64,000 bases of DNA. Source: Candidatus Jettenia sp. AMX2. Its GTDB lineage: Bacteria; Planctomycetota; Brocadiia; Brocadiales; Brocadiaceae. The position numbers were made by a program, and so were the translations under genes. The notes beneath the pieces are model-generated. The model was given only the letters and a program-made list of their open reading frames with translations. It ran no database searches and had not been told where the DNA came from. Numbering within the stretch: the stretch's first letter is position 1; every line of letters starts with the position of its first letter. This document shows positions 4,896 to 49,168 of the stretch, one piece after another. The stretch spans positions 744,001 through 808,000 of the forward strand of contig CP129469.1 in the NCBI GenBank assembly GCA_030583665.1. The letters are read 5' to 3'.

Positions 4896-5557
4896 ATGTT
4901 CATTTTTCTTGACGAATCAGGCGATCTTGGTTTTGACTTTAAAAAGAGAAAAACAACTAAGAAGTTTGTTATTACGCTTTTAGTCTGCGTGTCTGATGAA
5001 ACACGACATGAATTTACTAAATCCATCAGACGTACTCTCAAAAACAAATTGAACCGTAAAAAGAATAATTCACGACATGTAACAGAACTTAAAGGAACAG
5101 GCACTACTATTGATATTAAGAAATACTTTTCAGGAATATAAAAAGTAATAAGTGGGCTATTTATTCATTAGTACTCAATAAGGTTCGTGTGGAATCACGT
5201 CTTCAGACAAAGACCGGCAAGAAGAAACTTTATAATTTTTTATCCAGAGTTTTATTGGAAAAATTAAACCTGCATAATGCCAGGAGAAATGTCGAGTTGG
5301 TAGTAGATAGATGTAAAAATAAGGAAGAGGTATGGGATTTTAATCTCTATTTAATTAATCAGCTTGAAGCGCTATTACCTCTGAATACAATTTTAAATAT
5401 ATCGCATCTTACATCGCAGGAAAGCGCAGGATTACAGGCAGTTGATTTGTTTAGTTGAGGTATTTACCGAAAGTACGAAGCTAATGACTATGCATGTTAT
5501 ACCATTTACCAACATAAGATTAGATTTGAAACCGAATATTTACCTTGAGAAAGAATG
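4896..5557 (+). pseudogene. DUF3800-domain protein, broken by a frameshift and a TGA
   Basis: The first frame (4896-5141) starts MFIFLDESGD, the acidic N-terminal motif of DUF3800, an RNase H-like fold family common near restriction and mobile loci. Around 5130 the reading frame moves: the second frame runs through KWAIYSLVLNKVRVESR with no start codon needed, up to AVDLFS at 5455. An in-frame TGA there replaces what is normally Trp, and the same frame continues GIYRKYEANDYACYTIYQ to a second stop near 5557. With one base corrected and TGA read as Trp, a full-length protein of about 220 residues would result. It lies between mod and res, so it probably belonged to the restriction locus. I regard it as dead unless the two lesions are sequencing errors. 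Confidence 0.8.
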
Positions 5558-5562
5558 CGGCC

Positions 5563-5630
5563 CCTGCAATGCCCATTTCCTCTGGTTCATAGCCAACCGA
5601 TGGAAGGAAGCGCCAGAGGCACATTGCAGG
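5563..5630. repeat. Inverted repeat or hairpin between the DUF3800 remnant and res
   Basis: CCTGCAATG at 5563-5571 pairs with CATTGCAGG at 5622-5630, and an inner CCTCTGG pairs with CCAGAGG at 5613-5619, enclosing about 35 bases. No T tract follows, so a simple intrinsic terminator is unlikely. It may be a dispersed palindromic repeat or an RNA structure in the leader of res. Confidence 0.55.
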
Positions 5631-5757
5631 ATTTACCCGCCTATATTTTGTGTTTTTAGAATATCAAAGTCTGGCTTTTTTGTCAAAACTTATTTTAACA
5701 CTTTTTGTTTGTTACAAGACCCAAGTCTTGCAATGATTAGATAAAGACCCTTGCAAG

Positions 5758-19520: not shown

Positions 19521-20716
19521 ATGAAACCTATGAATGACAACATCGGAAAAGGGACCGAATTCGAAAACATCTGCTTGAGTACTCTCAAGCGGCTTGGCTT
19601 CGAGGAGCTTCAACTTACTAAGAGGGTAAATGATCAGGGGGCGGATTGGGTGGGGAGCTTTGAGGGCACTAGGTATTTGTTTCAATGCAAGAAACACAAA
19701 AAGAAGCAGGGTAACAGGGCAATTCAGGAGGCAATCGCGGCAAAGACATATTACAAAGCATCTCGCTGCGCCGTAATATCAGAAAGCGGTTACACCAAGT
19801 CTGCATATCAACTTGCACGTCCAAACTATTGTCTTTTGCTCATGCCATTAGAAATAACGGAAGCCGTGAATTCTCAGAAGACCTTCGCCGAGCTAATAAA
19901 GAATTACACATTCCCTGTAAACTCTCCGATAGAGCACGATTACGACTTAATCAAACGATACGAACAAATAAAGGCCCAAATTGGTCATACTCCGAGAAAC
20001 AAAGACCTTGATCCGACGACCCGTTACCGTATCAAGAAGAAGTACGGCAGCCTTTCCAGTCTCATTAGACAGCTTAGCGATAGCCCCTTCACAAGGAGGC
20101 CTTCGAACGAAGAGATTAGGAAAGAATACAAACGAGTTAAACAAGCTATTGGGAAGACGCCGACTCTTGCTAACATGCAGAAGCAGTCAAACTTCTCCAG
20201 AAATTGTTTCTCCAGTTACCCATTTACGAAACTGCAGGAGGAATGCGGTGACGCTCCGAATATTCAGAGAGGAGTATCCAAGGAGGACTTGATTAGCGCC
20301 TTCGACAGACTTCGCCGAGAGTTGGGAAGGATACCTTCCATCAAAGATCTGGATGAAAAGGGTGTTTACCGATCAAGTTACTACAGAACTCGATGGGGAA
20401 ATATTGATACGTTTCTCAAAGATCTTGGGATCCCCCAACGAGAGTTCAAGCAAAGGCAGTACGATGAGCGCGAACTAATATTGATCTATCTCCTGTTGAA
20501 AAAGGCTTTTGAAATCCGCAATGATGATGACAGTCTCACGCTAAACCATACTGTTTTAGAGAATCTGAAATACAAGGGAAAGGTCTTTGTTTCACCGGGG
20601 ATATTCAGTTCACGTTTTGGGGCTGGGGAGAATTCATGAAATGCCTTGACCGTGATTTGGCGTCACAGGTAGCACAGGCACTAGATGAGATCATTGACAA
20701 GTTTGCAGAAAAGTAG
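19521..20716 (+). pseudogene. Mrr-type nuclease with HNH-associated repeats, frameshifted near the 3' end
   Basis: The N-terminal 130 residues form a Mrr-like restriction nuclease (GTEFENICLSTLKRLGF, QGADWVG with Asp, YLFQCKKHKK with QxK). Then come three or more repeats of about 60 residues of the type LIKRYEQIKAQIGHTPRNKDLD, seen as homing-endonuclease-associated (HNH_repeat) modules thought to bind DNA. The frame closes at 20639 (FGAGENS) because of a G4 run at 20619-20622. With one base changed it continues GWGEFMKCLDRDLASQVAQAL to TAG at 20714-20716, the natural end. An attC-like site begins three bases later. Probably a restriction enzyme cassette; a real frameshift or a sequencing error are both possible. 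Confidence 0.8.
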
Positions 20717-20718
20717 AA

Positions 20719-20780
20719 TGGCTAACAATGGGTTCAACTTGACCGTCGCTTACACACCGGCAAGTTAACCCGGCCGATGG
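20719..20780 (+). repeat. attC-like site after the Mrr/HNH-repeat gene
   Basis: GGCTAACAATG opens the site. GGGTT-C-AACTTG-A-CCG (20730-20745) pairs perfectly with CGG-CAAGTT-AACCC (20758-20771) when one C and one A are left unpaired, exactly the extrahelical-base arrangement of integron attC hairpins. The closing GTTRRRY box is missing or degenerate (CCGATGGC), so it may no longer recombine. Confidence 0.65.
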
Positions 20781-20905
20781 CGCAGAATGTATTGTCTTCC
20801 AGTGTTTTTGATTATTGTTTTGCGTGACTCAATGATACACGAAAGCCTTATGTGGTGGAGCAGACCGTCACAAGCGTGTTTGGAGTTCCCCAGGATGGAG
20901 AAATT

Positions 20906-31241: not shown

Positions 31242-31475
31242 ATGAAAATGAAAGAAAAAATCAAATTATTTGATGTAGTGGCACTTATCGTCGATTTGCC
31301 TGAGTATAATCTCTGGCGAGGACAGGTCGGCACTGTGGTAGAAATCCTGGCTAACGGTGAGGCATATGAAGTAGAATTCTCTGACCGCGAAGGGCGTACT
31401 TATGAATCGCTGGGTTTGCGCCCGGACCAGCTTATGATATTGCATTATGAACCAATTAATGAAATTCGAACATGA
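31242..31475 (+). CDS. DUF4926 protein (probable immunity or antitoxin partner)
   Basis: 77 residues of the DUF4926 type (DVVALIVDLPEYNLWRGQVGTVVEIL... YEVEFSDREGRTY), 12 bp after the DUF6883 gene. The last 50 codons lie inside a 591-bp direct duplication, so an orphan copy of its 3' half recurs at about 31,913-32,066. Role inferred from pairing only. Confidence 0.75.
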   Translation: MKMKEKIKLFDVVALIVDLPEYNLWRGQVGTVVEILANGEAYEVEFSDREGRTYESLGLRPDQLMILHYEPINEIRT

Positions 31476-31912
31476 AGCCGTTGTTCGGGTGAACGGGATA
31501 GCAGACCTTATCTTTGATAGCTTGAATAAATCTTTTTTGCCCTTTCTGTCAATTGTTTCGCTTCCTCTTTCCTTCCGGTTCCCTCATAAAATTCTGCCAT
31601 TTTTTCTAATATGGTTGCAATTAACGGGTGGTCTTTACCATATTCTTTTTCATATATTTCAAGCGCCTTTTTATAAAGGGACTCAGCTATAGTGTTTTCA
31701 CCCTCATAGTGATAAAGAGTTGCAAGGTTGTTCATTGAAGAAGCAAGGTCAGGGTGGTCCGAGCCAAGTTTTTTCCCTTCGATGTCCAGGGCTCTTTTGT
31801 AGAATGGTATTGCTTCATCATATTTCTTCTGGTCCTGATACAGATTCCCCAATCTGTCCAGGACATTAACAACACCGGGATGATCCGGACCGAACGCATT
31901 CTCATATATGCC
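31322..31912. repeat. 591-bp tandem duplication, unit 1
   Basis: This segment recurs at 31,913-32,503 with no difference that I could find. It carries the 3' half of the DUF4926 gene (plus strand) and the 3' half of the TPR gene (minus strand). The junction between units joins ATATGCC to ACAGGTCGG. Either very recent or an assembly artefact. Confidence 0.85.
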
Positions 31913-31924
31913 ACAGGTCGGCAC
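31508..31924 (-). pseudogene. TPR protein, truncated duplicate
   Basis: 138 codons identical to the C-terminal half of the intact TPR protein (32,099-32,998): GIYENAFGPDHPGVVNVLDR to KKIYSSYQR. The apparent start is foreign sequence from the duplication junction and no signal peptide exists, so it is a by-product of the tandem duplication. Confidence 0.85.
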
Positions 31925-32503
31925 TGTGGTAGAAATCCTGGCTAACGGTGAGGCATATGAAGTAGAATTCTCTGACCGCGAAGGGCGTACTTATGAATCG
32001 CTGGGTTTGCGCCCGGACCAGCTTATGATATTGCATTATGAACCAATTAATGAAATTCGAACATGAAGCCGTTGTTCGGGTGAACGGGATAGCAGACCTT
32101 ATCTTTGATAGCTTGAATAAATCTTTTTTGCCCTTTCTGTCAATTGTTTCGCTTCCTCTTTCCTTCCGGTTCCCTCATAAAATTCTGCCATTTTTTCTAA
32201 TATGGTTGCAATTAACGGGTGGTCTTTACCATATTCTTTTTCATATATTTCAAGCGCCTTTTTATAAAGGGACTCAGCTATAGTGTTTTCACCCTCATAG
32301 TGATAAAGAGTTGCAAGGTTGTTCATTGAAGAAGCAAGGTCAGGGTGGTCCGAGCCAAGTTTTTTCCCTTCGATGTCCAGGGCTCTTTTGTAGAATGGTA
32401 TTGCTTCATCATATTTCTTCTGGTCCTGATACAGATTCCCCAATCTGTCCAGGACATTAACAACACCGGGATGATCCGGACCGAACGCATTCTCATATAT
32501 GCC
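31913..32503. repeat. 591-bp tandem duplication, unit 2
   Basis: Second unit of the direct repeat. On its right the TPR gene continues uninterrupted, so this unit is the original copy for the TPR gene, and unit 1 is the original for the DUF4926 gene. Confidence 0.85.
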
Positions 32504-32998
32504 AAGGGATTGTTTATACAAAGGTTCTGCTTTTTCATATTCATCCTGGAGGAGAAATGTTTCTGCAAGCTCGTGCAGTACTTTAGCGACATGGGGATGG
32601 TTTGATCCCAGCGATTCTTTGTAAATAGCGAGTGCCTGATTAAAGAGGGGTTCGGCTTCGTCATATCTGCCATAGGTTCTGTACAGTATTCCCAGTAAAT
32701 TCATTGAATCGGCAATACGGGTGTCATCAGGAGGAAATGTATTTTTCGCTACCTTTAATGCCTCTTCACCTGCCTTTATTCCATCCGCATATCTCTTTTT
32801 TTGTAAAAGCGAGGTGGTTTTATCATTGAGTTCCTTCCACAAATTTTCCTGGGTATATGCAGGCAAGGCGAAAACACCGGACAGAACCAATACAAAAAGG
32901 ACTTTCGTTCCGCAGAGGCAAAGATGCTTTATACTGTTTACTACCGTGACCATTCCAAGAATCTCCCCTATAATATTGAATGTTAATATCGGTTTCAT
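32099..32998 (-). CDS. Exported TPR (kinesin-light-chain-type) protein
   Basis: Up to 299 residues. An N-terminal hydrophobic segment (LCLCGTKVLFVLVLSGVFALPAYTQ) should export it; the start may be ATG 32,956 rather than 32,998. It contains about five 42-residue TPRs of the same class as the HicB-TPR protein (SNHPHVAKVLHELAETFLLQDEY, GPDHPGVVNVLDRLGNLYQD and so on), but the DNA is not GC-rich and the repeats are diverged. Probably a periplasmic scaffold. No obvious partner. Confidence 0.8.
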   Translation of the reverse strand: MKPILTFNIIGEILGMVTVVNSIKHLCLCGTKVLFVLVLSGVFALPAYTQENLWKELNDKTTSLLQKKRYADGIKAGEEALKVAKNTFPPDDTRIADSMNLLGILYRTYGRYDEAEPLFNQALAIYKESLGSNHPHVAKVLHELAETFLLQDEYEKAEPLYKQSLGIYENAFGPDHPGVVNVLDRLGNLYQDQKKYDEAIPFYKRALDIEGKKLGSDHPDLASSMNNLATLYHYEGENTIAESLYKKALEIYEKEYGKDHPLIATILEKMAEFYEGTGRKEEAKQLTERAKKIYSSYQR

Positions 32999-33283
32999 TT
33001 TTCACACAATTATCGTACTATTATAACGAATCTATTTTATTAAAAGACACATATTTTTCTTTAGCGGGCGAATTCTGAATGTGAGGGTTTTTAAAACCAA
33101 AAATATTATGAAATAAAACAACTATGATGACTCAGTATAATATATAAAGCACTATTACATCGAAGATATTTTTAAACATTCAATGTAATTATGCAAGTAT
33201 TTAGGTTGGCACTCGCTATGTCAATCGATAATATGTTGAAACTATAGAATAAAGATAAAAATAAATGTTAGGGGAAAGAATAA

Positions 33284-33640
33284 ATGACAAATAGAAATCG
33301 ATATGGAGATTCGTCATCGTTGGGAAAGAGTGATCTTGTTCCCTATCGTAAAAATGAAGATCCGAAGCACAGACACTATCGACGGCTGAAAACAAATCTG
33401 AATTGGAAAAATGATCTTTTACAATGGGCACGGACAAACAACTTTAAGGTTGACATCAAGAATGAAGGGCATCACTGGATACTTGTAAAACCAGAAGTTC
33501 GGGTAGAGTGGTGGCCCAGTTCGGCTAAGCTCGTAATAAATCAAAAATGGGACAAGGGAATCCATTGTCATGACTACAAAAAGCTAATCAATTTTCTTGA
33601 AAAGAACAACAACCTTACAAAAGAGGAAAAGCAAGAATGA
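33284..33640 (+). CDS. Small protein of unknown function (118 aa)
   Basis: Not recognised. Basic N-terminus (KHRHYRRLKTNLNWKNDLLQWARTNNF), then GHHWILVKPEVRVEWWPSSAKLVINQKWDKGIHCHDYKKLINFL, which reads like a compact alpha/beta fold rich in Trp. ATG preceded by AGGGGA. It overlaps the next gene by 4 bases (ATGA). The pair ends in an attC-like site, the layout of a two-gene integron cassette, often toxin-antitoxin or defence. Function unknown. Confidence 0.6.
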   Translation: MTNRNRYGDSSSLGKSDLVPYRKNEDPKHRHYRRLKTNLNWKNDLLQWARTNNFKVDIKNEGHHWILVKPEVRVEWWPSSAKLVINQKWDKGIHCHDYKKLINFLEKNNNLTKEEKQE

Positions 33641-33858
33641 AAAAATCAATCGTCAAAGTGCAAAGCTCTCTTTATACCACTGACACTGCTCAAAAGATGC
33701 TGGTCTATAATGAAGACAGAAGCATTAACTACGAGGCAGATTTAACAGAAGAGGTAAAAAAGGTGCTTTTAGGCAGACCCAAAGCATATTTTGAGTTTAC
33801 CTTGACTGAAAACAAGGAGATTCGTCTTGGAAAAGAAGTCGCACCTCAAAATTGGTGA
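33637..33858 (+). CDS. Small protein of unknown function (73 aa)
   Basis: 73 residues with no known family: MKKSIVKVQSSLYTTDTAQKM, YNEDRSINYEADLTEEVKKVLLGRPKAYF. Mildly acidic, no membrane segment. Translation is coupled to the preceding gene by ATGA overlap. The stop lies about 25 bp before an attC-like site. Plausible antitoxin or immunity partner, by arrangement only. Confidence 0.6.
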   Translation: MKKSIVKVQSSLYTTDTAQKMLVYNEDRSINYEADLTEEVKKVLLGRPKAYFEFTLTENKEIRLGKEVAPQNW

Positions 33859-33880
33859 TTATAAAGACAATAAAGGCGGC

Positions 33881-33955
33881 ACCTAACAACCGCATGAACT
33901 CGGACTGGCAATTCCGCTGCGCTTTATTGCCAGCCGGTTATGCGGAATGTTATAC
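33881..33955 (+). repeat. attC-like recombination site, well formed
   Basis: Opens with ACCTAAC (fits RYYYAAC) and closes with GTTATAC. CCGCAT-G-AAC-T-CGG-A-CTGGCAAT (33,890-33,912) pairs base for base with ATTGCCAG-CCG-GTT-ATGCGG (33,926-33,945) if the three bases G, T and A are unpaired. Conserved unpaired bases on one arm are the defining structure of integron attC sites. The best of the sites in the window. Confidence 0.75.
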
Positions 33956-33977: not shown

Positions 33978-34733
33978 ATGAGTAATGCAAAAAGTAATGC
34001 AATAAAAGGTAGAGAAGATATTTCGAGGTTTGTCGTGCACCTGACCCGTGATGATACTTCGGACTTCACCGATGGTGGAACAGCCGAAGACAATTTTAGT
34101 GCAATTATCGAGGATAGAAGGATTGGTGCTTATCAACCCCATTGTATACATTCAAATGAAATACCCAAAGATCTACGAAAACGTTATTCAGTAACATGTT
34201 TTACAGAAGTGCCTCTGACCCAGCTTGGCTTACTTACTCGAAAAATACCTGGACGTAAGGTTTTCCTTGAACCTTATGGGTTTGTTTTTTCGAGGGAATT
34301 CATTATTACCAAAGGAGCGCAACCTGCTATCTACATTAATTCTTATAGTGGCAATCTTTGGTTGAGAGATGCCGCTAATAGTATTTGCAAAATTGCACGT
34401 AAGAAGGGATTCCGGAAAGGAAAGGTTTGGCGTTTTTTACCCTTTTTAAATGCAATGCATGAAAGATATGATTTTACATGGGAGAGGGAGTGGCGAGTTC
34501 GCGGGGATGTCGAGTTTAAACCATCGGATGTGGTGGCAGTTATACTTCCAGGCGGTGGTTGCAAAAAATGGCGTGAAAATTTCGCACTAAAAGGTATTCC
34601 GGTGCTCTCGCCAGGTCTTTCCTATGAGGAAATTGTTGGAGAGTTGTCATTGCAACAGAGAAAAACGAAAAGAATATGGGTCGAAAGAAAACGCCGAGCG
34701 CGTCGGTCAAAGGGAAAAGAACGGAATGTATAA
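33978..34733 (+). CDS. AbiGi-like abortive-infection family protein
   Basis: 251 residues from ATG 33978; the longer frame upstream only translates the attC site. The layout SRFVVHLTRD, DNFSAIIEDRRIGAY, then YSVTCFTEVPLTQL, GFVFSREFIITKGAQPAIYI and a later FTWEREWRVRGD fits what I know of the AbiGi family (phage-resistance protein, listed as the antitoxin of the AbiG pair) and the related DUF2971 proteins that report on a cell or DNA state. It is the first gene of an apparent operon: it overlaps the next gene by 8 bases. The assignment is by motif recall, so moderate. Confidence 0.55.
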   Translation: MSNAKSNAIKGREDISRFVVHLTRDDTSDFTDGGTAEDNFSAIIEDRRIGAYQPHCIHSNEIPKDLRKRYSVTCFTEVPLTQLGLLTRKIPGRKVFLEPYGFVFSREFIITKGAQPAIYINSYSGNLWLRDAANSICKIARKKGFRKGKVWRFLPFLNAMHERYDFTWEREWRVRGDVEFKPSDVVAVILPGGGCKKWRENFALKGIPVLSPGLSYEEIVGELSLQQRKTKRIWVERKRRARRSKGKERNV

Positions 34734-34968
34734 CAACACTCTTGCAACCATCATTCCATGGACATTCTGGTTTTCCACCGGTTACGTCAGCCATATTACC
34801 CCTTACGCAGACCAATACTTGGAGGCTGCCAGTGTACTCACGTTTATAGGTCTGCTCGGTCCGGTGGGAGTGGCATATTGGCTGATTTCAAGAGATTCTG
34901 AATTGTGGACTGATGTGTTAAGAAGATTCTTCAATATACTTAATCCTTCTTCATCATCTAAAAAATGA
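34726..34968 (+). CDS. Small two-helix membrane protein
   Basis: 80 residues from ATG 34726, which overlaps the end of the AbiGi-like gene. Two hydrophobic segments (NTLATIIPWTFWFSTGYVSHI and SVLTFIGLLGPVGVAYWLI) and a basic, serine-rich tail. Its TGA overlaps the start of the helicase gene (ATGA). No family recognised. Small membrane proteins coupled to nuclease or helicase genes are frequent in phage defence, where they may act as a pore-forming effector; that is inference. Confidence 0.65.
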   Translation: MYNNTLATIIPWTFWFSTGYVSHITPYADQYLEAASVLTFIGLLGPVGVAYWLISRDSELWTDVLRRFFNILNPSSSSKK

Positions 34969-37900
34969 ATTCCATCGCTTTTGTTGATACGGAAATTGAG
35001 CCAAAGAGCCGAAAGATCCTCGATATTGGCAGTATTAAGGATAACGGCAGTTTTTTTCATTCAAATTCAATTGCAGGTTTCATTGATTTTTTGAAAGGTA
35101 CAAAATTCATTTGTGGTCATAATATCCTCAATCATGATATAAAATACCTTCAGAAAGTTATTAATGATGCCGGAATAGACCAGTCAAATATTATAGATAC
35201 ATTGTTTCTCTCTCCACTGCTCTTTCCTGCCAAGCCGTATCATGCTTTATTGAAAGATGATAAACTGCAGACAGAAGATAGAAATAGCCCACTCAATGAT
35301 TCAATAAAAACAAAAGACCTTTTGTTTGATGAAGTTGCAGCATTCAATCAGAAAGACGAATCTCTAAAACAGATTTTTTATTTGCTGTTGCATAACAAAA
35401 AGGAGTTCTGCTCTTTTTTTGACTTCATTGCATACAAGAGTAACAATTCAGAACTTGAACTGCTTATTCACGAAAAATTTCACTCTGAAATTTGCAACCA
35501 GGCAAATTTACATGAAATTATTGCACAACACCCGATTGAGTTGGCGTATTGTTTAGCATTGATAGATTGCAGAAACCGATATTCAATTACACCGCCCTGG
35601 GTTCTCAGAAATTTCCCGGAAGTTGAACGAATAATGTTTTTACTCAGGAACAAACCCTGCCTGAGCGGATGCGTTTATTGCAATCAGGCATTGGACATAC
35701 ATAAAGGACTTAAAAGATATTTTGGTTTTGACTCCTTTAGAACGTATGCTCATCAACCGCTGCAAGAGAACACAGTAAGAGCAGCTATTGACAACAAATC
35801 CATTTTAGCGGTTTTTCCAACCGGTGGCGGTAAGTCAATAACATTTCAAGTACCGGCGTTGATGAGTGGTGAAAACACAAAAGGGTTGACTGTTGTGATT
35901 TCTCCTTTGCAGTCATTGATGAAAGATCAGGTTGATAATTTAGAGAAAATTGGAATCACAGATGCGGTAACAATAAACGGTTTGCTTGATCCGATTGAAA
36001 GAGGAAAATCCTTTGAAAGGGTTGAAGATGGTTCTGCTTCCATTCTTTACATCTCACCCGAATCCCTACGTTCAAAAACTATTGAACGGCTTTTATTAGG
36101 AAGAAACATTGTTCGTTTCGTAATTGATGAAGCACATTGTTTTTCATCGTGGGGACAGGATTTCAGGGTTGATTACTTATACATCGGAGATTTTATCAAA
36201 TCACTTCAGGAGAAAAAAAATCTTGAAGAGGTAATTCCTGTTTCTTGTTTTACTGCAACTGCAAAACGAAAAGTTATTGAGGATATCCGTTCTTATTTTA
36301 AAGAAAAATTATCCATTGACTTAGAAATTTTCAAGGCAAACGCTTCAAGAGCAAACTTACAATACAAAGTATTTCAGAAAAACAGCGAAGAAGAAAAATA
36401 CAGCACTGCCAGAAACCTCATAGAACAAAAAAATTGTCCGACTATTATTTATGTTTCCAGGACATACAGAGCATACGATCTTGCGAAAAGGTTAAATGAG
36501 GATGGTTTTAACGCCAAACCTTATCACGGTAAAATGGATGTTAAGGAAAAGACCGAAAACCAGAATGCTTTTATATCGGGTGAAATTCAAATAATGGTTG
36601 CGACATCTGCTTTTGGAATGGGAGTGGATAAAAAAGATGTTGGAATGGTTATTCACTACGATATTTCTGATTCATTAGAGAATTACATTCAGGAAGCAGG
36701 AAGGGCAGGCAGAGATGAAAATATTACTGCCGATTGCTTTGTATTGTTCAATGAAGAAGACCTTGTCAAACACTTCATCCTGCTCAACCAGACAAAATTA
36801 AGCATCAAAGAGATCCGGCAGGTTTGGAAAGCGATTAAAGAAATTACAAAATTCCGTTCAATTGCATCCAATTCGGCTTTGGAGATTGCACGAAAAGCGG
36901 GTTGGGATGATACTATTGTAGAAATAGAAACACGGGTAACAACGGCAATTGCAGCACTTGAAGTCGCCGGCTATTTGAAACGGGGACAGAACATGCCGAG
37001 GATTTTTGCCAACAGTATTTTGTCCAAAACTGCTCAGGACGCTATTGGCAAGATAACTCAATCATCAAGGTTTAATGAAAACCAAAAGATAAATGCTATA
37101 AAAATTATGAGAAAACTATTTTCAAGCAAGAGCAGAAAACACTCCAATGAGGAAGTCGCTGAATCAAGAGTCGACTACATTTCCGACCATCTTGCAATAG
37201 TAAAAGAGGATGTCATACATGCTATCAATCTGCTCCGTGAAGAAAAAATTTTAGCAGATGCAAAAGATTTAACTGCTTTTATAAAAACAGGCGAAAACCA
37301 AAACCGTTCCCTGGCTATCGTAAACACATTCAGCCAAATAGAAAAATTTCTGTTGAAGTATTTTGAAGAACAGGAAAAAACCTTTAACCTGAAAGAATTG
37401 AATGAACAGGCCGAAGAGTACGGTTACAAATCTTCTCCAAGCAAGCTTAAGACTATAATCAATTTTTGGGCAATTAAAAATTGGATTAAGCGACAAAACC
37501 TGGAATCTTCTAAAGATCATATTTTGGTCTGTTGTGTCCAACCGAAAGAGGTTTTGGAAAAGAAAATGGAAAAGAGACATGAGCTGGCAATATTTATTGT
37601 TGGCTATCTCTATGAAAAGACAAACGTTAACATTGCTATGGATGAACCAAGAAGAGAAGAAGTATTGGCAGAGTTTTCAGTTCATGAGCTTAAAGAAGCA
37701 TTCGGGAAAGAGCGTAAACTATTTATAACAGAAATTACTATAGAGGATATAGAAGATACTCTTTTCTATTTGTCAAGAATTGGTGCAATAAAAATCGAAG
37801 GTGGATTTTTAGTAATATATAACCGGCTTACCATTGACAGAATAGAGCAGAACAATAGGATTCAATACAAGAATGATGATTACCAAAAACTGCATCAATT

Positions 37901-39761
37901 TTACGAAAACAAGATACAACAAATACACATTGTTGGTGAGTATGCCAGGAAAATGATTGAAGATTACAAAGGCGCTTTACAGTTTGTTGATGATTATTTT
38001 CAATTAAATTACACGTCTTTTTTAAACAAGTATTTTCCTGGAAGCCGTCAGGATGAAATTAAACGAAACATAACCCCTGCTAAATTCCGCCAATTATTTG
38101 GCTCACTATCAGAAACACAATTAAAAATCATTAAAGATAATCAAGCACAATATATTGCTGTTTTGGCAGGACCTGGAAGCGGCAAGACAAGAGTGTTGGT
38201 TCATAAATTAGCTTCTCTGCTTTTGATGGAAGATGTAAAACATGAGCAACTATTAATGGTGACTTTTTCAAGGGCAGCAGCGACGGAGTTTAAAAAGAGG
38301 CTGCTCCAACTAATTGGTAACGCTGCCAATTACATTGAAATAAAGACCTTTCATTCTTACTGTTTCGACCTGTTAGGTAAAGTTGGAAGTCTGGAAAAAT
38401 CAGATGCAATTCTAAAGAGTGCGATTAAAAAAATTAATAACGGTGAAGTTGAAGCGAACCGAATTACAAAAACGGTACTTGTAATTGATGAAGCACAGGA
38501 TATGGATGCTGATGAATATGCTTTAATAAATGCACTTATGGAACAAAATGAGGACATGAGAGTAATTGCCGTTGGTGATGATGATCAGAATATTTACGCT
38601 TTTAGAGGCTCTGATTCAAAATATTTAAAGCAGTTTATCACAGAAAAAAATGCTACTAAATATGAATTAATAAAAAACTACAGGAGCAAAGGTAACCTGG
38701 TTGAATTTACAAACCAATTTGTTAAAAAGATTCACCTCCGACTAAAAAGTATTTTAATTTCTGCAGAACAGCAGGACAATGGGAACTTAAAGTTGGTGCA
38801 TTATACCAGCAACAACCTCATTACTCCCCTGGTGAATAATATTCTTTCAACAGAACTTGCAGGAACTACCTGTGTTTTGACAAAAACTAATGAGGAAGCA
38901 CTACAGGTAACAGGACTACTACTCAAAAATGGATTGCAAGCAAAGTTGATTCAAAGTAACGATAGGTTTAGCTTGTATAATCTTTTAGAAGTCAGGTTCT
39001 TTTTGAATGAATTAAAGTTAGAAGATGATGTATTCATAATTAGCGATGAAATCTGGGAAAATGCAAAAAGGAAATCCCTGGAAAGGTTTAGGCGGAGTTC
39101 AAGAATAGAAGTATGTGAAAACATCATCAGAGATTTTGAAGCTACGAACCCAAAGAAAAAATACAAATCTGATTTGGATGTTTTTATCAGGGAATCGAAA
39201 CTTGAAGATTTTTTTGGTGAAAACAGTGAAACAATTTTTGTTTCAACAATACATAAAGCGAAAGGAAAAGAATTTGACAATATGTATTTATTACTTGATA
39301 ATTTTGATCAGCAAAAAGACGATGCAAAGCGACTGTTATATGTTGCAATGACAAGAGCTAAACAAAACCTGACGATTCATTTAAACGGTAATTATCTTAA
39401 CAACATTACAGCAGATAATTTAGTGAGAACGGAAGATAGAAAAACCTATCTGCCACCAAACCAGATGGCAATGCACTTAACATTCCAAGATGTATGGTTA
39501 GATTATTTTATGGACAGACAACACCTTGTAGGGAATCTTATGAGCGGCGATGTACTGGAAATAAATAACGTTGGATGCACTGATGCAAATGGACGATTAG
39601 TACTAAAGTTTTCTCGGCAGTTTCGTAATACAATAACTTCCAGACAGCAAGAAGGCTATCAATTAAAAGAGGCGAAGGTAAATTTCATTGTTTATTGGAA
39701 AAAACCCGATACTGATGTTGAATCAAAAATTATTTTGCCAGAATTATATTTTGAAAGGTGA
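34965..39761 (+). CDS. Giant fusion: DnaQ-like exonuclease + RecQ helicase + UvrD/Rep helicase
   Basis: 1,598 residues. Residues 1-110 form a DEDDh exonuclease: FVDTE (Asp8, Glu10), GHNILNHDIKYL (Asp58) and YHALLKDDK (His93, Asp98 or 99). Next comes a RecQ-type SF2 helicase: TGGGKS near 286-291, DEAHC near 387, SAFGMGVDKKDV and QEAGRAGRDE near 575. After a winged-helix-like region comes an SF1 UvrD/Rep helicase: GPGSGKTRV near 1067, DEAQDMD near 1175, GDDDQNIYAFRG, VSTIHKAKGKEFD near 1425 and VAMTRAK near 1457. All motifs appear intact, so three DNA-processing activities with 3'-5' polarity sit in one chain. It overlaps the small membrane protein gene by 4 bases. Large RecQ-UvrD fusions occur in a few bacteria, but their role is not settled; with an AbiGi-like gene upstream, phage defence is likely. 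Confidence 0.9.
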   Translation: MNSIAFVDTEIEPKSRKILDIGSIKDNGSFFHSNSIAGFIDFLKGTKFICGHNILNHDIKYLQKVINDAGIDQSNIIDTLFLSPLLFPAKPYHALLKDDKLQTEDRNSPLNDSIKTKDLLFDEVAAFNQKDESLKQIFYLLLHNKKEFCSFFDFIAYKSNNSELELLIHEKFHSEICNQANLHEIIAQHPIELAYCLALIDCRNRYSITPPWVLRNFPEVERIMFLLRNKPCLSGCVYCNQALDIHKGLKRYFGFDSFRTYAHQPLQENTVRAAIDNKSILAVFPTGGGKSITFQVPALMSGENTKGLTVVISPLQSLMKDQVDNLEKIGITDAVTINGLLDPIERGKSFERVEDGSASILYISPESLRSKTIERLLLGRNIVRFVIDEAHCFSSWGQDFRVDYLYIGDFIKSLQEKKNLEEVIPVSCFTATAKRKVIEDIRSYFKEKLSIDLEIFKANASRANLQYKVFQKNSEEEKYSTARNLIEQKNCPTIIYVSRTYRAYDLAKRLNEDGFNAKPYHGKMDVKEKTENQNAFISGEIQIMVATSAFGMGVDKKDVGMVIHYDISDSLENYIQEAGRAGRDENITADCFVLFNEEDLVKHFILLNQTKLSIKEIRQVWKAIKEITKFRSIASNSALEIARKAGWDDTIVEIETRVTTAIAALEVAGYLKRGQNMPRIFANSILSKTAQDAIGKITQSSRFNENQKINAIKIMRKLFSSKSRKHSNEEVAESRVDYISDHLAIVKEDVIHAINLLREEKILADAKDLTAFIKTGENQNRSLAIVNTFSQIEKFLLKYFEEQEKTFNLKELNEQAEEYGYKSSPSKLKTIINFWAIKNWIKRQNLESSKDHILVCCVQPKEVLEKKMEKRHELAIFIVGYLYEKTNVNIAMDEPRREEVLAEFSVHELKEAFGKERKLFITEITIEDIEDTLFYLSRIGAIKIEGGFLVIYNRLTIDRIEQNNRIQYKNDDYQKLHQFYENKIQQIHIVGEYARKMIEDYKGALQFVDDYFQLNYTSFLNKYFPGSRQDEIKRNITPAKFRQLFGSLSETQLKIIKDNQAQYIAVLAGPGSGKTRVLVHKLASLLLMEDVKHEQLLMVTFSRAAATEFKKRLLQLIGNAANYIEIKTFHSYCFDLLGKVGSLEKSDAILKSAIKKINNGEVEANRITKTVLVIDEAQDMDADEYALINALMEQNEDMRVIAVGDDDQNIYAFRGSDSKYLKQFITEKNATKYELIKNYRSKGNLVEFTNQFVKKIHLRLKSILISAEQQDNGNLKLVHYTSNNLITPLVNNILSTELAGTTCVLTKTNEEALQVTGLLLKNGLQAKLIQSNDRFSLYNLLEVRFFLNELKLEDDVFIISDEIWENAKRKSLERFRRSSRIEVCENIIRDFEATNPKKKYKSDLDVFIRESKLEDFFGENSETIFVSTIHKAKGKEFDNMYLLLDNFDQQKDDAKRLLYVAMTRAKQNLTIHLNGNYLNNITADNLVRTEDRKTYLPPNQMAMHLTFQDVWLDYFMDRQHLVGNLMSGDVLEINNVGCTDANGRLVLKFSRQFRNTITSRQQEGYQLKEAKVNFIVYWKKPDTDVESKIILPELYFER

Positions 39762-45782: not shown

Positions 45783-45822
45783 TATACGGCCCGCGGCTCC
45801 GGTTGAATCGTCTGTTAGGACA
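45783..45822 (-). repeat. Half attC-like site at the 3' end of the protease gene
   Basis: Read on the minus strand, GTCCTAACAGACGATTCAACCGGAGCC... begins inside the last codons of the protease gene: its TAA stop lies in TCCTAAC, the RYYYAAC box. The second half (GGCT-AACTC-GTTRRRY) is absent, so the site is truncated. Confidence 0.5.
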
Positions 45823-46531
45823 CCGGCGCTGGCAGTTGTGCTCCAATAGGATTCACGTTGATCAAATCGATCGCATACTCAATTGAGTATGCAACGACGA
45901 TTCCAGTATTGTATCGTATTTCGAGCGGAGTCTCTTTCCCATTGAGAAAGACTTTCTCCCATTCAAATCTATAGCTGGAAACAACACCAGCCACGCAGAT
46001 TTTACGGGGGCTACTCGGAGGCGAAAATACAACAGGTCCTCCCGAGAAACCTGGGTTGTTATGCCCATCCAAAAGAAAGTACTTGTCACTGCCTGAGTCG
46101 AGAGCAAGCAGTGATATACACGCCTTTTTTACGAGAGGCAGCGGAAACTGCGCGTTCAGATGGCCAACGTCTGCCTGCAATCCGTACGGAAATCCAAGAA
46201 AGTACGCGTCTTGGCTTAGAAGCATTCCGTTGGTTGAGGGTTCAAACGAATAAGTTGGAGAAATCTGGCAAGCTGGGGCAAGAACCGCGATATCAACATC
46301 GCCAGATGTTGCGCCAACGTAGTAACAAGACAAGTCCTTCCATTGTCCATCGTGAAAGATCTGAATGGTAAATCTCTCAGCTGCACCTTGCACGACATGC
46401 CGGGCGGTGACCAAATACTGTCTTGAATCACGATCGATCGTAAAGCACGTACCACTATTGGTGCCATACTTGAGGTGAAATGTTCGTTGAAGTGCATTCG
46501 AAGGTACCACTGATCTATCTCCCTTTGGCAA
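45815..46531 (-). CDS. Trypsin-like serine protease (intracellular)
   Basis: Up to 238 residues; the frame opens with TTG at 46531, but GTG at 46510 has the better ribosome-binding site (AGGGAG). The chymotrypsin-fold catalytic triad is visible: YLVTARHVV (His45), GDVDIAVLAP (Asp80) and NNPGFSGGPVVF (Ser163). No signal peptide or membrane segment, so it acts in the cytoplasm; proteases of this kind occur as phage-defence effectors. It is bracketed on both sides by attC-like sequences, as in a gene cassette. Intact. Confidence 0.85.
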   Translation of the reverse strand: MPKGDRSVVPSNALQRTFHLKYGTNSGTCFTIDRDSRQYLVTARHVVQGAAERFTIQIFHDGQWKDLSCYYVGATSGDVDIAVLAPACQISPTYSFEPSTNGMLLSQDAYFLGFPYGLQADVGHLNAQFPLPLVKKACISLLALDSGSDKYFLLDGHNNPGFSGGPVVFSPPSSPRKICVAGVVSSYRFEWEKVFLNGKETPLEIRYNTGIVVAYSIEYAIDLINVNPIGAQLPAPVS

Positions 46532-46588
46532 CTAACGTCTCAACCGTGCGGTGGCTATCAGCCATCCGCACGAGTGATTTGTTATGGG
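46530..46588 (-). repeat. attC-like site between toxin and protease genes
   Basis: On the minus strand it runs from CCATAACAAATCAC to ACGTTAGTTG. The central stem CGTGCGG-A-TGGCT pairs with AGCCACCGCACG with one unpaired A, and the outer boxes AACAAA and GTTAG are attC-like. It lies 5 bases past the toxin stop and just before the protease start, as expected for a cassette boundary. Confidence 0.6.
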
Positions 46589-46592
46589 TCAT

Positions 46593-46912
46593 CTATTTTT
46601 CTCTATTTTGCAGTATTGCATTCACAACCTGTGGCTTGCGCGCACAATGAAAAAGTCCGAACACAATAATCTGGTCTTCTTCTATCGTAAAATAAATGGC
46701 GTATGGAAATCGTTTGAGTAAACGCCGCCGAAATTCACGGTAAACTTTGGGGTAAAGCAAGGGATTCCATTAAATTTCATTTGCAGAGGAATAAAACATC
46801 CGAAGAAATTCCTCACCAAGACCATTGAATTTTGTTTCATACCAACTATAGCCATTAATGGCATCTCCTTCAACTTCAGGAAGAAACCGCAGGACATATT
46901 CATTTCTTTGCT
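46593..46912 (-). pseudogene. RelE/ParE-family toxin, disrupted twice
   Basis: In one frame the minus strand reads YVLRFLPEVEGDAINGYSWYETKFNGLGEEFLR, then FYSSANEI, a stop (TAA), then WNPLLYPKVYREFRRRLLKRFPYAIYFTIEEDQIIVFGLFHCARKPQ and a natural stop at 46593. That is a complete RelE/ParE toxin, but its ATG (46,902) lies one base out of frame and the TAA interrupts the middle. It is thus probably inactive. The antitoxin gene just upstream is intact. Confidence 0.82.
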
Positions 46913-47121
46913 TTTATTCTTTTTTGAAGTTCTTCAAGAGATAAAAGTTCTCCGGGCATAGCTTGATGCCTTGTTAGTCTCTTGTCAAGCTCTGTTATAT
47001 GGCTTTGGGGGACAGGAATGGTAGATTCATCAGAAGAAATGCTGTCCCACAGATCCTCGACGAGAAGAATCTTTTCCGGTATGCTTAGCTTTTCAATTTG
47101 TGGAATATCCTTTGCGCGCAT
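46900..47121 (-). CDS. Addiction-module antitoxin (Unstab_antitox/TIGR02574 type)
   Basis: 73 residues: IEKLSIPEKILLVEDLWDSIS is the diagnostic helix of this antitoxin family, followed by LTRHQAMPGELLSLEELQKRIKAKK. A plain start at 47121 is preceded by AGGAGC. It is expressed just upstream of the broken RelE/ParE toxin, so the neutraliser survives without a working toxin. The attC-like site downstream fits a toxin-antitoxin cassette. Confidence 0.87.
   Translation of the reverse strand: MRAKDIPQIEKLSIPEKILLVEDLWDSISSDESTIPVPQSHITELDKRLTRHQAMPGELLSLEELQKRIKAKK

Positions 47122-49168
<2,047 letters not shown>

Follow-up and report, generated by a model that had tools for sequence, protein, structure and literature searches.

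The locus described here, in the anammox bacterium Candidatus Jettenia sp. AMX2, a member of the family Brocadiaceae, is very probably the remnant of a chromosomal integron, in which the integrase gene (of the type designated IntI-B) has been deleted to ~20 codons, with a promoter-like sequence, the attI site, and a two-gene cassette with its attC being kept. It lies in a window of 64,000 nucleotides, i.e., the whole stretch of DNA that was analysed, corresponding to positions 744001-808000 of a 3.46-Mb, single-contig genome. On sequence grounds, the attC, the type of attI, the borders of the cassette, the intI relic, and the strand and order of these parts are all established. A previous, sequence-only reading had singled out the hairpin and the two genes before it; the feature is larger, and includes an attI, a promoter-like sequence and an intI relic upstream of the cassette. 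In window coordinates, its components and the gene that follows are:

33042-33104, minus strand: relic of the 5' end of intI, ~20 codons (about codons 1-22), 163 nt from the attI crossover
33059-33267, plus strand: attI and leader region of the IntI-B type, found by profile HMM, with the core AATAAAGATAAAAATAAATG at 33248-33267
33206-33234, plus strand: candidate Pc promoter, TTGGCA-17-TAATAT, a consensus match only and not above the shuffle expectation for the region
33268-33949, plus strand: gene cassette of 682 bp, between the crossovers G33267^T33268 and G33949^T33950
33284-33640, plus strand: cassette ORF 1, 118 aa, relatives undetected in the collections given below
33637-33858, plus strand: cassette ORF 2, 73 aa, with a 4-nt overlap with ORF 1, relatives likewise undetected
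33881-33955, plus strand: attC site, with R'' ACCTAAC, an imperfect hairpin and R' G^TTATAC, recognised by its fold, a covariance model and a motif shared with the blaOXA-2 attC
33978-34733, plus strand: gene of 251 aa, weakly AbiGi-like (PADLOC AbiGi, E 3e-5)

The attC site at 33881-33955 reads ACCTAAC AA CCGCAT G AAC T CGG A CTGGCAAT tccgctgcgcttt ATTGCCAG CCG GTT ATGCGG AAT GTTATAC. Its arms, CCGCAT/AAC/CGG/CTGGCAAT, pair in four blocks (6+3+3+8 = 20 pairs), and single extrahelical bases, namely G, T, and A, are found on the left arm alone. This is exactly the hairpin that the sequence-only reading had claimed, with 20 paired bases, three single unpaired bases on one arm and an ACCTAAC/GTTATAC frame, and the two-gene unit that it had placed before the hairpin (33,284-33,858) is likewise present as the ORFs at 33284-33640 and 33637-33858. 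Folded as DNA, the hairpin reaches -20.4 kcal/mol, versus -10.2 +/- 2.1 for dinucleotide shuffles (z = -4.8; 0/200 shuffles as good), and the opposite strand has a similar fold. The frame CCTAACAA...GTTATAC, with its spacing, occurs once in the window, with 0 occurrences expected. The boxes are also those of an attC, in that ACCTAAC fits RYYYAAC in full and GTTATAC has one mismatch to GTTRRRY. Likewise, the extrahelical bases on one arm of an imperfect hairpin correspond to attC structure, as borne out by both the fold and the covariance model R2.

Two attC covariance models were employed, with the window site left out of each. The first, R1, was made from eight attCs of plasmid integrons, and the second, R2, from 44 attC sites comprising R1's eight together with R1 matches around integrases of this clade and in plasmid integrons (class 1 cassettes included). 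A covariance-model run on the window was the check that the sequence-only reading had proposed for its attC, and R2 ranks 33881-33955 first in the window, at 36.9 bits and an E-value of 1.6e-5 on the plus strand. On the minus strand of the site, R2 gives 7.6 bits only, such that the model takes the site in the orientation of the upstream genes. Genome-wide, the site has an E-value of 8e-4 with the same model and is among ~30 sites with E < 0.01, most of which cluster near integrase genes or fragments. R1 responded weakly, at 11.5 bits unfiltered and with no match under default filters, such that a small reference set would have missed the site. The training set of R1 was too narrow, and the broader R2 resolved the site; the third extra base is a likely cause of the low R1 score. 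Judged by its boxes, fold, and model score, the hairpin is a genuine integron attC that closes the two-gene cassette.

As a strong stem-loop that immediately follows two genes, the hairpin could also act as a terminator of transcription, or belong to an interspersed palindromic repeat merely resembling attC. This explanation is scarcely credible, however, as no T-run follows the stem on the plus strand, Rfam has no match at the hairpin, no whole second copy is found in the organism's own genome (the best other match covers 43/75 nt and is itself attC-like), and the attC model match is strand-specific. The counterparts in relatives argue against it as well. Specifically, a DNA search found 83-93% identical hairpins in several other anammox genomes, where most of them lie directly behind an ORF, and the ORFs differ between loci. 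For example, aquaporin-like and MscL-like ORFs stand in tandem with near-identical hairpins in one genome (G015), and an acyltransferase-like ORF precedes a near-identical hairpin in another (G031), the protein types having been assigned by eye. Across the relatives, the R'' and R' boxes vary and the hairpin is kept, as would be expected of cassettes that recombine at those boxes. Identical copies at many non-cassette sites, which the sequence-only reading had named as the observation that would undo it, are therefore not what the relatives present. Finally, the attC of blaOXA-2 on plasmid R906 shares the L''/L' motif AACTCGGAC...GCCGGTTA and its extra bases with the window attC, from which it differs in its terminal loop, R'' box, and outer stem.

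In integrated form, a cassette is expected to begin with a sequence that agrees with the reverse complement of the R'' box it carries. Here, the cassette begins with GTTAGGG, and the reverse complement of R'' is GTTAGGT, a match at 6/7 positions. The same relationship extends to other loci, with the variable RRRY part matching at 60/76 positions in 19 attI-attC pairs, versus 44.0 expected (p < 5e-5). In comparison with the DNA of relatives, upstream conservation stops exactly at the GTT of GTTAGG, which precedes the first start codon by 16 nt. Among 49 attI copies, a few of which may be spurious or truncated at the end of a contig, 19 have a downstream attC on the same strand within 2.5 kb, as against three attCs in any other arrangement. 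The segment thus has the anatomy of a gene cassette, with ORFs followed by an attC, G^TT crossovers, and a 5' end complementary to R''. Its presence at attI would be explained by recombination of attI with attC at G^TT, mediated by an integrase; no empty attI site was found in relatives, none of which has the same flanks, and the insertion is accordingly inferred from this anatomy.

No relatives of ORF 1 were found in Pfam, NCBIfam, PADLOC, PHROGs, PDB, plasmids, phages, viral contigs, or 84,980 species genomes, and none of ORF 2 in Pfam, NCBIfam, PADLOC, PHROGs, plasmids, viral contigs, or 75 genomes of the class; the cassette proteins had one sub-threshold match to NCBIfam. The weakly AbiGi-like gene at 33978-34733 is probably a former second cassette whose attC has been lost, based on the positions of its homologues, one of which is second behind attI in a relative (G017) and another directly before an attC in a different one (G054). 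This gene is followed by an 80-aa ORF and then by a 1598-aa protein (window 34965-39761, plus strand) with RecQ-like and UvrD-like helicase domains, parts of which resemble the DpdF and GajB defence models.

Upstream of the cassette, a profile HMM made from 29 other copies, with the window excluded, matches window positions 33059-33270 with an E-value of 1.7e-22, and nothing else in the window is significant. Alignment of the attI copies brings out two common parts, a promoter-like TTGACA...TAATAT and the core, and the copies diverge immediately past G^TT; at the Pc position, the other copies have TTGACA and then a TAATAT-like sequence. Two relatives, Candidatus Kuenenia hertensis and Candidatus Brocadia pituitae, encode next to this element a full-length integron integrase whose transcription leads away from it, and the IntI-B start is 163 nt from the attI crossover. 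Relative to intact IntI-B genes, the element has a constant upstream position in Brocadia, Kuenenia, and Scalindua, and IntI-B homologues in Scalindua, Nitrospirota, and Deltaproteobacteria have a related element that is ever less similar and mostly at about the same distance. Its recurrence beside IntI-B genes across taxa identifies the element as the part of IntI-B integrons that contains attI and the promoter, with an intact intI adjoining it in three named anammox species and a weaker case in other phyla. At present, the fixed promoter of this region probably drives transcription of the cassette. A further likeness is seen in the attI2 core of class 2 integrons (AATAAAATGTTRRRY; PMC12901181), which is also A-rich and ends in TGTT at the crossover but differs in its upstream sequence, and this is to be taken as a resemblance only, with no homology implied.

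On the minus strand of the same region lies what is left of the integrase gene. The relic reads FKNPHIQNSPAKEKYVSF, compared with FKDYLIQKALVKDKYVPF of IntI-B (18 aligned residues; shuffle p 0.0002), and its start codon is ATA in place of ATG, at exactly the 163-nt distance seen in intact integrons. Past ~33042, the relic gives way to DNA that lies upstream of a TPR gene (32099-32998). The region of this TPR gene is itself partly duplicated, as an exact 300-nt direct repeat with 591-bp spacing is present at window 31322-32212. Elsewhere in the window, at 5550-5648 on the minus strand, Rfam identifies a DUF3800-V RNA with a score that exceeds the gathering threshold.

The attI and the relic together bear upon the suggestion that a distant integrase had inserted a lone cassette off-target, at some secondary site in the chromosome other than an attI. 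Off-target insertion is one proposed origin of integrase-less attC clusters (PMC8618304), and both the two other integrases in the genome and the single certain attC at the locus would be compatible with it. The sequence upstream of the cassette, however, is the full attI-leader element common to intact integrons, up to the exact crossover, and the intI relic lies at the expected distance. Off-target placement is already strongly contradicted by these findings and must be regarded as very improbable.

The attI core pattern, AATAAAGATAAAAATNAATGTTAGG, occurs at 72 places in 33 of 59 genomes (a reversed control pattern occurs at none), whereas intact IntI-B is present in only 3 of the 59. Such numbers, along with tandem copies in G012 and G032, might suggest that the attI element moves independently, as a promoter that has been copied from place to place in these genomes and acquired cassettes later. 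This seems quite improbable, as the conservation runs on into the intI coding sequence, and partial intI relics adjoin several of the orphan attI copies, both of which point to the decay of whole integrons. Relatives also exhibit intermediate stages of this decay, in the form of partial intI deletions beside attI. As to the tandem copies, the two genomes are placed in different genera and have the same arrangement of three attI copies within 2.8 kb; this shared arrangement reflects recent transfer or contamination.

No intact IntI-B is found in the organism's own genome; the attI of the window is thus without its own integrase, and a different integrase would have to act in trans for the cassette to move. 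The sequence-only reading had suggested looking for an integron integrase elsewhere, and the genome does encode two full-length ones over the curated cut-off of TIGR02249 (at 1941044 and 1562074), together with many fragments. These two integrases have 43-50% identity to IntI-B, neither of them being IntI-B, and their attI sites bear no resemblance to the window element. The cassette is probably static now, unless one of the two acts upon it in trans, as it possibly could. In a separate observation, one genome of the set (G041) has ~20 near-identical recombinase copies that match TIGR02249 positions 7-176 and look like an amplified mobile element.

One could also view the orphan attI-promoter sites of anammox bacteria as dispersed platforms for the expression of single cassettes, maintained by selection, with cassettes being supplied in trans by an integrase elsewhere or by transient integrons. 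If true, one integrase would serve many landing sites; at present, we consider this rather unlikely. The reading of the locus as an integron remnant has points against it too, including an R1 score of only 11.5 bits, an intI relic of 18 residues, and just one certain attC.

The threshold for a CALIN is two attC sites, and the locus, with one certain attC, does not comprise the two or more neighbouring attCs without an integrase that would place it in this group. Neither is it a complete integron, given that only an 18-residue relic of intI persists and the start codon is lost. As summarised in PMC8618304, the CALINs of Cury et al. are attC clusters without an integron integrase, and off-target insertion, loss of intI, and rearrangement are debated as origins of such clusters. 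Going by that summary, the locus resembles a CALIN in having a cassette and attC with no neighbouring integrase, and loss of intI is among the origins proposed; it differs in having retained attI, a promoter-like sequence, and a relic of intI, and it is these that identify its origin as intI loss. A remnant integron has also been reported from Treponema phagedenis (PMC3607928), where attC sites and cassettes are similarly kept and the integrase gene is lost, but the present locus additionally has a recognisable attI and promoter-like sequence, and its state recurs across a whole family. Frequent decay of the integrase is known from pseudo-integrons as well, with approximately one third of the intI genes surveyed by Nemergut et al. 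in 2008 (PMC2426708) being pseudogenes; in the window, by contrast, almost all of intI has been deleted, leaving the landing site as the sole survivor.

Precedents exist for both the decay of integrases and attC clusters that lack one (PMC2426708, PMC3607928, PMC8618304), and the locus, which does not represent a novel class of system, is a good worked example of an ordinary one in an instructive state of decay. Its contribution lies in an attI type that can be recognised by sequence in many genomes, tying an integrase-less cassette to the loss of a specific integrase, and in the spread of this type through anammox bacteria. Compared with attC, attI sites are reported to show lower conservation and to be more difficult to predict (PMC3607928). 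With a recognisable attI type, loss of intI becomes demonstrable locus by locus, with intermediate stages of deletion. Repeated loss of the integrase, with landing site and cargo kept, also provides a series of stages in which one can ask at what point an integron turns static, and if its cargo (e.g., AbiGi-like defence genes) stays in place. In the literature searched, no description of integrons from anammox bacteria was found.

Other attC-like sites are present in the window. A trypsin-like gene (45815-46531) has a second attC immediately upstream of it (46530-46587, minus strand; 32.9 bits, E 1e-4) and a weak one at a greater distance on the same side (47404-47463, minus strand; 16 bits). 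The small ORF between the two attCs (46900-47121) appears by eye to encode an addiction-module antitoxin-like protein. The two attCs likely form an integrase-less array of their own, which also has an attC-like relic near 45815. Finally, an attC candidate on the plus strand (20720-20781; 30 bits, E 4.5e-4) is located behind a 372-aa ORF at 19521-20639 that looks nuclease-like.
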